Below are positions 24,857 to 28,773 of a DNA stretch of 64,000 bases, piece by piece. The notes under the pieces are model-generated. The model made no database searches, was not told where the DNA came from, and saw only the letters and a program-made list of their open reading frames with translations. Origin of the DNA: Methylacidiphilum sp. Yel (GTDB taxonomy: Bacteria > Verrucomicrobiota > Verrucomicrobiia > Methylacidiphilales > Methylacidiphilaceae); contig NZ_LXQB01000067.1 of the NCBI RefSeq assembly GCF_004421185.1, positions 1-64,000 on the forward strand. The letters run 5' to 3'. The translations under genes and the position numbers were made by a program. Positions within the stretch are counted from its first letter, which is position 1. The number at the start of each line of letters is the position of its first letter.

Positions 24857-25156
24857 TTTTTAAATTGTCCAATGAATGTGATGATGGATACTGTCGATTT
24901 TTGTCGTCGACAAAAATTCACCCCATGACACCTTTTATCGTCTTTCTTAGATAATTTTAGCTTTTTTTTAAATGTGAATTTTTACACGCGGAAAAAACCA
25001 AAAAAACGATATAGTGATTTTCGGATATCTTGCAATTTTAATTTTTAAAAAACCCGCTTTATTCCCTTAACTTAAAAAAAATTTCTCTCCTAGAATAAAT
25101 TCCCAACGATAGCAATTAACCTTAAAAAATCGGCTCCATCCTATTATAGTTTTCTT
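24857..25156. promoter_or_regulatory. Divergent promoter region of ugd and RNA ligase gene, with palindrome
   Basis: This AT-rich 300-base spacer holds one striking site: ATTTTTGTCG (24897-24906), a central T, and CGACAAAAAT (24908-24917), a perfect 21-base inverted repeat. It is too tight for a good RNA hairpin loop and looks like a dimeric repressor site upstream of ugd. No coding frame or tRNA was seen. The remainder has several A/T runs that could serve as promoter elements in both directions, but no clear -35/-10 pair. Confidence 0.45.
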
Positions 25157-26257
25157 ATGTTTGAACTGTTCATTGAAGAAATTCTTGCCAAAAAAAGGGG
25201 GGTCCAAGGAAAATTTCAGGATAAGACTTATATAAGATTGACAAATAGCTATGGGGGATGGCCAGAGGGAAGCATTGTTTTTAAAGATCTTATCATTGCA
25301 GGTTTTCCTAAAATCGGAAGAATAAACTCCTTGGAGTCCGGACTACGAGAACAATTTTCTGGTTCCTTTTGGATGGAAGAAAAAGTCGACGGTTATAACG
25401 TCCGGATTTTTCACCATCAAGGTCAAATTTATTGTGCCACTCGAGGAGGATTTATCTGCCCATTCAGTACGGACAGAATAGTGGATCTGCTCAATGTAGA
25501 TATTTTCATCGATCATCCCAATCTTGTTTTATGTGGTGAAATTACTGGGCCTGGAAGTCCTTACATTGAGGGACCCACCCCATTAGTTTCTGAAGATATC
25601 AAGCTTTTTATTTTTGATATTGCAAAAGGTTCCACCATGGAATTTCTGCCTGAACGACAAAAACATGAGCTTATTAGTCGATATGCGTTGCCTTCAGTTA
25701 AGAATTTTGGTCTTTTTGAAAACCAACCTGAAGACTTGAGGCAAATAAAAAAAATCTTGTTATCGCTTCACAACGAATACAGAGAAGGGGTTATTTTTAA
25801 AGAAGAACCATTTGGCCGGCGCACAAAATACGTCACTGCAAATTCTGATTTGAACGATATTGCCGTTTTTTCTCAAAAGATTTTAGATGTGAGCCCTAAC
25901 TACTTTATCGATAGAATTATACGGTACGTGTTATTTTTAACAGAACTGGGACTGATCGAAGAAAACAACTGGGAAGAAAAACTAGGAAAAGCCTTTGTTT
26001 GTGGAATCAAAGAAGTACTCAAAAAGGTGCAAGCAGATGGTCGATCCTCCCGATTTTTTCGATGTCGATTTAGGGAATTGAAAAATGCTGAATATTTTAT
26101 CGAACATCTTAAACATATTCCAGGACATCAAGAGCATGTAATCATAAAGAAAGTATACAAAGAGAACAGCTATTGGGTTTTGGAGTTTGAAAAGACTTTT
26201 CCTTCGACTAGCGACACTTTAAGAAACTGGCTCTCCGGAGCCCTCCGGTTTGATTAG
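25157..26257 (+). CDS. Rnl3-type RNA ligase (Pab1020 family)
   Basis: This is an ATP-dependent RNA ligase that joins or circularises RNA through an enzyme-AMP intermediate. Nucleotidyltransferase motifs are all visible: motif [11 protein letters not shown] with lysine K76, ATRGG (94-98), [12 protein letters not shown] (motif III region, E128), FIFDIAKG (151-158), EGVIFK (210-215, motif IV) and RTKYV with K224 (motif V). An alpha-helical C-terminal domain of about 120 residues follows. Length and layout match the archaeal Rnl3 enzymes known from Pyrococcus and Methanothermobacter; bacterial members are uncommon and mainly thermophilic. Its last 39 bases overlap the 3' end of the convergent HARP gene. 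The natural RNA substrate is unknown. Confidence 0.88.
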
Positions 26258-26827
26258 ATTTTTTAAACAATCTCTTAAAAATTTTGCATTCATTATTTCA
26301 ATACCCATCTTATCAGCCCATTTTTTCATGCCTTCATCAGCTGTTACTAAAATCCCTTCCAATTCATAAGCTAAAAGAATGACATCCACATCCTCCCTGC
26401 TATCAAGGATGCCTTGTCTTAAGGCTTCGCGATAACGATTTCTTAAGCGGTTTACCAACTGATCAAAAGGAATGGGATTTCCTCCATTTGGCCCTGCAAG
26501 TTTCAAATGTTCCTCGGCTATCCTTAGTCCATGATCAATTCTTTTCCTTATTTCTTCAATGAAATCATAAAGAACGAAACCTGGAATGAGCAGGTTAAAT
26601 TTTCGAGGAGAACGAATGTGGACAGTCAATTCAAAATCGGAAGAGAAAAAACCGGCTCCTTTCATAATTTTCAGTTCTTGATAGGCAGATGAGGGCATAA
26701 AAAATTGAGCATCGGCTTTGGTCGCTAAGGAAAGAAAATTTGAAAAAACCGTTGGATCGTCCTCTCCAAATTGTTGCGTAATATCTGGATTTGTAAAGAC
26801 ACTTGTATCCAGAACAAACTTTTTCAC
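26219..26827 (-). CDS. HARP: RNA-free RNase P homologue / 'RNA ligase partner' PIN protein
   Basis: This is a PIN-domain nuclease of the UPF0278 family. The N-terminus [10 protein letters not shown] with Asp7 closely matches my memory of Aquifex Aq_880, the minimal protein-only RNase P (HARP). Further metal-binding acidic residues are D142/D146/D148 in [15 protein letters not shown] and D164 in VTADEG. A helical arm (about 85-135) with RNRYREA lies between them, as in HARPs. The family is also named RNA ligase partner because it co-occurs with Rnl3 ligases, and here the two genes overlap tail to tail by 39 bases. Whether it processes tRNA 5' ends or does another job is open, since many HARP carriers also have ordinary RNase P. 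It follows nadA on the same strand. Confidence 0.87.
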
Positions 26828-26865: not shown

Positions 26866-27792
26866 TTATTCACTCCACTCCAACATTTGTTGAATAGGAA
26901 TAAAAGCTTTTTTACGGATTTCTTCTGGCAGATCAATCTCAGGATAATCCCTTTCAAGAGAAGAGATAACCTTGTCTATGGTGATCTTTTTCATAAACTT
27001 ACATTGAGAGCAAGCACATCTGGGTGTCGAAGCCGGGATGAAATTCTTCTCTGGAATTTCTTTTTTAAGCCTAGTGGTCATCCCAACCTCCGTCACAATT
27101 ATAAACGTATTAGCCGGATGGTTTCTACAATACCTGATCATCTGTTCCGTCGAACAGACCTCATCGGCAAGCATTCTTACTGCTCTTTCACACTCCGGAT
27201 GAGCCACAATTGGAGCAGTAGGATAATTTTTTTTCAAATTTAAGAGGGATTGATGCGTAAATTCTACATGCACATAGCATTCTCCAGGCCACAAGTCCAT
27301 CTGTCTACCCGTCTTGCTTTGTACCCATTCCCCTAAATTTTGATCAGGTACGAAAAGAATTTTCTTATCAAGAGGGACTTTTTCGATGATTTTTATGGCA
27401 TTAGCAGACGTACAAATACAATCACTTAGTGATTTTACCGCCGCAGAGGTATTGACATAAGCTACAATAAAAACCTCTGGATTTTTTATTTTGTATTCAA
27501 GAAGTTCTTCATAAGAACATGTATCCGAAAGAGAACAACCCGCTTCCAAATCAGGAAGGATTACTTTTCTATTTGGGTTTAATATCTTGGCTGTTTCAGC
27601 CATAAAATGAACCCCACAAAAAACAATCCGTTCTGCCGTAGTATCCCTGGCTTTAAAAGAAAGTCCTAGGGAATCCCCTATATAATCGGCTACTTCCTGA
27701 ATTTCAGGCAACTGATAATTATGGGCCAAAAGAATAGCGCGCTTTTCTTTTTTAAGTTTTAAAACAGTTTCTTTTTTTTCCCTTAAATCCAT
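26866..27792 (-). CDS. nadA: Quinolinate synthase NadA
   Basis: It condenses iminoaspartate with dihydroxyacetone phosphate in NAD synthesis, using a [4Fe-4S] cluster. Visible are AHNYQLPEIQEVADYIGDSL at the N-terminus, GVHFMAETAKIL, LPDLEAGCSLSD with one cluster cysteine, a second in SDCICTSANA, and the third in the CACSQCKFMKK region. The 308 residues match the short NadA class without extra domains. It lies nine bases after lspA on the same strand; nadB and nadC are not here. The enzyme depends on iron-sulfur supply, which the suf genes in this window could provide. Confidence 0.95.
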   Translation of the reverse strand: MDLREKKETVLKLKKEKRAILLAHNYQLPEIQEVADYIGDSLGLSFKARDTTAERIVFCGVHFMAETAKILNPNRKVILPDLEAGCSLSDTCSYEELLEYKIKNPEVFIVAYVNTSAAVKSLSDCICTSANAIKIIEKVPLDKKILFVPDQNLGEWVQSKTGRQMDLWPGECYVHVEFTHQSLLNLKKNYPTAPIVAHPECERAVRMLADEVCSTEQMIRYCRNHPANTFIIVTEVGMTTRLKKEIPEKNFIPASTPRCACSQCKFMKKITIDKVISSLERDYPEIDLPEEIRKKAFIPIQQMLEWSE

Positions 27793-28386: not shown

Positions 28387-28773
28387 TCAAAAATAATGAT
28401 CTTCTTCAAGTTCCTTCAGTCTTTTCTCGTTAGTTTCTTCTACGACTTCTACAAGATTCGGTAATTCCAGAAGAACTTCAAGACTAAGTGGAATTTGATC
28501 GGAGAAAAAGCTAGTGGTTTCAATGATTTGTCGGTTATTGGAAAGATATACCCAAGCAAATTCATCCCCCTGAATGATTCGAAATTGCGGATGTTCTTCA
28601 TAAAAAATATCATCCAGTTTTTCTATTACCATAGTTGACGTATAGTTCCCCTGTCCAGGAATTACCTGCTCAACTCTTTCAAAACGCTCCAGCCAATGTG
28701 CCACAAACTTCTCAATTTCTTCTTTTGTAAAAGGTTGTAAGAAAACACCAATGTATCCACTCCGTTGTATCAT
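28387..28773 (-). CDS. Conserved-looking small protein, function unknown
   Basis: I do not recognise this 128-residue protein. It begins MIQRSGYIGVFLQPFTKEE and alternates beta-like and helical segments (IGVFLQPF, STMVIEKL, FRIIQGDEFAWVYL), followed by a strongly acidic C-terminus. It has no cysteines, no signal peptide and no membrane segment, so it is probably a cytoplasmic alpha/beta protein. It sits 12 bases after dnaN and 34 bases before lspA on the same strand, which supports it as a real operon member. Codon use looks like its neighbours. Confidence 0.65.
   Translation of the reverse strand: MIQRSGYIGVFLQPFTKEEIEKFVAHWLERFERVEQVIPGQGNYTSTMVIEKLDDIFYEEHPQFRIIQGDEFAWVYLSNNRQIIETTSFFSDQIPLSLEVLLELPNLVEVVEETNEKRLKELEEDHYF

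Follow-up and report, generated by a model that had tools for sequence, protein, structure and literature searches.

It is puzzling that certain bacteria retain a protein-only RNase P in addition to the ribozyme, and the main clue to the reason is the RNA ligase partner of this nuclease. The question is raised by two genes in a 64-kb stretch of DNA (the window) from Methylacidiphilum sp. Yel, a heat- and acid-loving methane-eating bacterium, where an RNA ligase of the Rnl3 type and a homolog of Aquifex RNase P (HARP) meet tail to tail. The Methylacidiphilaceae provide a clean setting to address it, since all members possess RNP RNase P, the genome examined for fibrillarin has no recognisable copy and the tRNA-elbow site of HARP shows a marked substitution, and their pair narrows the published models and offers direct tests. 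The reading favoured here, to which we assign a probability of about one half, is that both genes form an accessory module that cuts and seals RNA beside the ordinary RNase P.

The link between HARP and the ligase is itself not new. Published in 2025, it comprises a co-occurrence of HARP and Rnl3 in 89% of 751 HARP genomes and a co-localisation in about 80% of the bacterial cases having both, in an arrangement described as "typically bidirectional" (Seshadri and Gopalan, mBio 2025, PMC12153264), and HARPs in Verrucomicrobia have also been published already (PMC10941002). The locus analysed here is a member of the same kind, as its genes belong to the same two families and lie within 5 kb of each other in a bidirectional arrangement, in this case convergent with an overlap of 39 bp. 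The main text of PMC12153264 contains no mention of Verrucomicrobia as such, of coding overlap or of the geometry of the junction. What is added here, and was not found in the main texts of the earlier papers, is a fixed tail-to-tail and often overlapping junction in bacteria from several phyla that is kept through relocation, together with a head-to-head pair on two haloarchaeal plasmids and a His99 signature in HARP. Furthermore, the lack of a recognisable fibrillarin disfavours the published C/D-box model in this host.

The ligase gene (positions 25157-26257 of the window, plus strand) has an ATG start and encodes 366 amino acids with a conserved C-terminus (...LSGALRFD), and the HARP gene (26219-26827, minus strand) has a GTG start and encodes 202 amino acids. 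The tail-to-tail coding overlap (26219-26257) covers 39 bp, includes both stop codons and keeps the two frames in codon register. Both reading frames and the overlap, which had been recorded in a preliminary description of this DNA, were reproduced at the same positions. Upstream of HARP and on the same strand lies nadA (26866-27792, minus strand), separated by a gap of 38 bp. Codon comparison with congeners yields dN/dS values of 0.06-0.15 for HARP and the ligase, that is, purifying selection, and therefore both are working genes.

The ligase had been assigned beforehand to the archaeal Rnl3 type, with K76 as nucleophile and all motifs present, and profile searches and motif alignment agree. 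It matches TIGR01209 over the full length of the profile (312 bits, with a cut-off of 136.9), contains the Pfam domains RNA_ligase and Lig_C (PF18330 at 68.5 bits) and possesses motifs I, Ia, III, IIIa, IV, and V, which are mostly invariant across seven relatives, motif I being EKVDGYN with the catalytic lysine K76. The closest solved relatives are 3qwu (a "DNA ligase" by title), 8uce, 2vug (PAB1020), and 5d1o. The likeness to the Rnl3 ligases PAB1020, MthRnl, and 3qwu extends over the full length, so that it takes in the Lig_C domain as well as every nucleotidyltransferase motif. Unlike them, however, the ligase studied here resides in a bacterial host without recognisable fibrillarin and, therefore, C/D box sRNA is probably not its substrate. 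The activity predicted from family membership is ATP-dependent intramolecular RNA ligation.

Likewise, HARP shows full-length matches to PIN_5 (PF08745, 197 bits) and to TIGR03875 (198 bits, cut-off 95.3), its PDB matches are all "RNA-free ribonuclease P", and residue comparison confirms the aspartates D7, D142, D146, D148, and D164 on which its first identification was based. The statement that this nuclease family has been called an RNA ligase partner also proved correct, since the NCBI name of TIGR03875 is "RNA ligase partner protein". When the active-site residues of the Aquifex aeolicus HARP Aq_880 are taken from Teramoto et al. (PMC8405995), nine out of nine are kept (D7, T8, S9, D138, S139, E141, D142, D144, and D160). 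The basic site proposed to contact the tRNA elbow (R94, R96, K99, R102, R125, R129, and R133 in Aquifex numbering) is conserved at six of its seven positions. Thus, Aq_880 and the HARP of this host have in common the fold family and nearly all of the residues compared, but differ at residue 99, Lys in the former and His in the latter, and in that Aquifex has no RNP RNase P. His occupies this position in 11 of 11 Methylacidiphilaceae sequences, whereas other sampled HARPs have Lys or Arg. As a separate observation, Glu141 (Aquifex numbering) is replaced by Gly in seven HARPs (L032, L038, L045, L052, L054, L064, and L065), a count that equals the Methylacidimicrobium rows, while all other sampled HARPs have Glu.

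The host genome (2.25 Mb, 99.98% complete) carries RNase P RNA (RF00010, 227 bits), rnpA (66 bits), and RtcB, all of them genes that the preliminary description had proposed to look for. Moreover, RNase P RNA is found in 13 of 13 Methylacidiphilaceae genomes, one of which matches only in part, where its contig stops. With RNase P RNA and rnpA both encoded, HARP is not the only RNase P of this host, and a sole role of the Aquificaceae type was rejected. The cut-and-join RNA pathway put forward from the sequence is partly supported, as the family identities hold and so does the suggested functional link between them, which the conserved adjacency favours.

The presence of the RNP enzyme also bears on the alternative that survives best, although we consider it unlikely, namely that HARP is a backup or stress RNase P that would trim pre-tRNA 5' ends if the RNP enzyme fails, that the ligase would separately mend RNA broken by heat and acid, and that the two are linked solely through habitats that favour each of them. 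Aquifex relies on HARP as its sole RNase P, pre-tRNA cleavage is known for several HARPs (PMC10941002), HARP-bearing organisms are thermophilic or halophilic, and the HARP of this host retains all catalytic residues and most of the elbow site; however, RNase P RNA throughout the family and rnpA in the host speak against such a role, and so does the change of the basic residue 99 to His in every family member. Furthermore, recombinant HARP from Methylacidiphilum infernorum is reported to form oligomers and not to process pre-tRNA (PMC12153264, citing Gossringer 2023), so that a backup role, while possible, runs against this report, to which a caution from the field applies, as recombinant HARP may misfold (PMC10941002). 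His99 was rejected as the sole cause of the inactivity because relatives of other HARPs reported as inactive (Halorhodospira, Thioalkalivibrio) have Arg at this position.

Within the phylum, HARP above cut-off is confined to the Methylacidiphilaceae among 388 genomes, with one sub-threshold PIN match elsewhere. The 13 Methylacidiphilaceae genomes, from three genera, have HARP and the ligase without exception, whereas 27 genomes from elsewhere in the order have neither. Each of the 13 contains one intact, overlapping pair, tail to tail in every case and, therefore, the arrangement is not due to chance. In the first genus, the pair is located between nadA and ugd, near dnaN/dnaA, and in the second and third it lies in unrelated surroundings; it is nonetheless convergent and overlapping in all three (39, 42, and 54 bp). 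The pair has thus stayed together while its neighbourhood changed, with three settings in three genera, a tight adjacency for which a common habitat, as invoked for a backup RNase P, provides no explanation. The ligase tree shows a single origin for the Methylacidiphilaceae with 99% support, and the HARP tree groups the same rows weakly. In Methylacidiphilum only, HARP probably closes a gene run dnaN-orf-lspA-nadA-HARP, in which the 128-aa protein flanked by dnaN and lspA (28387-28773, minus strand) exhibits 81-96% identity within the genus and has no Pfam or NCBIfam match.

The same layout extends to other bacteria. Scanning genome contigs, we recovered 80 HARP loci in bacteria, which come from Aquificota, Pseudomonadota, Verrucomicrobiota and Spirochaetota as well as from a Tectomicrobia bin and from one named "Acidobacteria" that clusters with Aquificota. 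The ligase adjoins HARP in 58 of these loci and is placed tail to tail in all 58, with overlapping coding regions in 40. Hence, the lack of conservation in relatives that the preliminary description had named as evidence against its proposal was not observed, neither in the Methylacidiphilaceae, all of which keep the adjacency, nor across this wider sample. Overlaps of 15-54 bp, all multiples of three, occur at 31 junctions and overlaps of 4 bp at nine, while 16 loci have gaps of up to 187 bp and two have gaps near 1 kb. In the gammaproteobacterial loci L096 and L101, the pair is convergent with about 0.8-1.1 kb between the genes. The constant phase of the overlaps fits common descent of the junction, because point changes of stop codons keep the phase. 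Among the 22 loci without adjacent ligase, six lie at a contig edge and 16 on contigs that continue and, therefore, contact between the genes is not required; a ligase match was found in 21 of the 24 genomes that have no close ligase neighbour (22) or a wide gap (2). Linkage does not depend on a missing RNP RNase P, an idea that was rejected because RNase P RNA turned up in 15 of the 28 sampled genomes with linkage and in 12 of the 22 that are unlinked or end at a contig edge. No third conserved partner gene beyond common families was found at the HARP-ligase loci.

The divergence of both proteins is correlated across 44 bacterial representatives (r = 0.89 between HARP and ligase distances, with a maximum of 0.27 in 2,000 permutations), and their trees have 19 of 43 splits in common. 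These correlated distances fit joint inheritance or transfer, although shared descent alone would also give them. They are thus compatible with a further reading, distinctly improbable in our view, in which the pair is linked by transfer only, the cassette having spread between thermophiles and the overlap reflecting stop-codon drift, with no cooperation between the products. The patchy distribution and congruent trees fit co-transfer as well, and movement of stop codons does generate convergent overlaps, of which E. coli has 75 among 4,131 adjacent pairs (PMC4161906); however, the linkage outlasts changes of neighbourhood within one family, and unlinked genomes mostly retain both genes. Moreover, the convergent adjacency of bacteria has a divergent counterpart on two haloarchaeal plasmids, where HARP and Rnl3 lie head to head with their starts 98 and 121 bp apart, and the recurrence of the same partner in opposite layouts argues for function over mere carry-over. 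Both haloarchaeal loci (L144:3123-5023 and L145:3016-4954) are on megaplasmids, and the region between the starts is a possible shared promoter. The overlapping layout kept across several bacterial phyla supports a joint job of HARP and the ligase.

In the favoured accessory module, the pair would be the Methylacidiphilum copy of a HARP-Rnl3 cassette that operates beside the RNP RNase P and does not replace it. HARP, as a metal-dependent PIN endonuclease (oligomeric in studied members), would cut tRNA-like or stem-ended RNA, leaving 5'-phosphate and 3'-hydroxyl ends, which Rnl3 would then join, circularising or repairing the cut RNA without an end-healing enzyme. In turn, the convergent overlap would hold both genes together and set their transcripts against each other. 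The cooperation of HARP and the ligase, whether physical or sequential, as well as their substrate and the antisense control, are what we infer from the arrangement and the families. RNase P-type cleavage yields products with 5'-phosphate and 3'-hydroxyl ends, and RtcB requires other RNA ends than Rnl3. Rnl3 ligases are described as joining a 5'-phosphate to a 3'-hydroxyl (PMC5599603). The two activities thus fit together without end healing, unlike the case of RtcB. A bolder version, to which only a low probability is given, holds that the Methylacidiphilaceae HARP gave up pre-tRNA cleavage and would form with Rnl3 a dedicated pathway of cutting and resealing or circularisation on a non-tRNA substrate, with antisense co-regulation of both genes; it draws on His99 in the elbow site and on the inactivity reported for M. 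infernorum HARP.

Studies in archaea provide information on both partners. The Thermococcus ligase circularises C/D box sRNAs, and its loss leads to a build-up of rRNA fragments (PMC9014305). Knockouts of the Thermococcus ligase and of HARP in Haloferax and Methanosarcina cause no growth defect (PMC12153264). These results speak against the favoured module, as do the inactivity reported for M. infernorum HARP and the 16 loci on continuing contigs where HARP has no adjacent ligase. The result for the Thermococcus ligase also counts against a toxin-antidote-like pair, a very unlikely alternative raised earlier for HARP (PMC12153264, PMC6380272), in which HARP, a PIN protein of the VapC group, would cut tRNA or rRNA upon a stress or infection signal and Rnl3 ligation would reverse the damage. 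PIN cuts give 5'-phosphate and 3'-hydroxyl ends that Rnl3 can join, and a compact two-gene cassette with patchy spread has the expected appearance; however, Aquificaceae without RNP RNase P have a housekeeping HARP that is still linked, and vertical retention in 13 of 13 family genomes indicates a stable trait, unlike a turnover-prone toxin-antitoxin module. In addition, a search for known defence systems with PADLOC gave marginal matches only, and searches for the ligase in phage records and for HARP in viral contigs returned no copy, plasmid carriage being limited to five non-mobilisable haloarchaeal megaplasmids. A toxin-antitoxin system of the VapC type was rejected as well, with no VapB-like small antitoxin beside HARP, whose neighbours are nadA and the ligase, and no recurrent third gene. 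To our knowledge, C/D RNA is not expected in bacteria, and a profile search of the host genome found no fibrillarin above cut-off, with one sub-threshold methyltransferase-like match. The models of Seshadri and Gopalan, in which HARP trims and Rnl3 circularises C/D-box sRNAs, or HARP removes Rnl3-adenylated leaders, are therefore extremely unlikely here, at least in their C/D part, despite the circularisation of C/D box sRNAs by the archaeal ligase in vivo (PMC9014305; PMC12153264).

The overlap also raises the question of antisense transcription. Within its 39 bp, HARP has its variable C-terminal tail, encoded on the strand opposite to the conserved ligase end and, since HARP follows nadA after 38 bp on the same strand, the HARP transcript must enter the ligase end unless it ends inside the overlap. 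The overlap holds two hairpin or terminator-like matches, in a region with a total of five against 3.2 expected in shuffles; terminators are not claimed, given that this number does not exceed what chance would produce there. A precedent is the conserved tail-to-tail pair mscL-arfA, for which antisense control was shown in E. coli (PMC10070815). The likeness resides in the conserved tail-to-tail overlap. By this precedent, mutual antisense of the HARP and ligase transcripts is a reasonable prediction from the overlap. Beyond three tRNAs, the 64-kb window contains no Rfam match that would indicate a structured RNA tied to the locus.

On the other side of the ligase, a candidate promoter (TTAAAA-N17-TATAGT, about 25122-25156, plus strand), a weak match to the consensus, reaches to within 6 nt of the ATG, and congeners show a similar spacing. 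As there is no clear Shine-Dalgarno sequence, the ligase may be translated from a leaderless mRNA. In G004, a genome of the same genus, ugd is split in two frames (L039:6873-8161), which points to a frameshift or an assembly error. Within the 300-bp intergenic region between the ligase and ugd, a block at 25006-25045 (ACGATATAGT...ATCTTGCAATTTTAAT) is conserved in five of five Methylacidiphilum genomes while the rest drifts, and this block fits a putative minus-strand promoter of ugd (TTGCAA-N16/17-TATATC).
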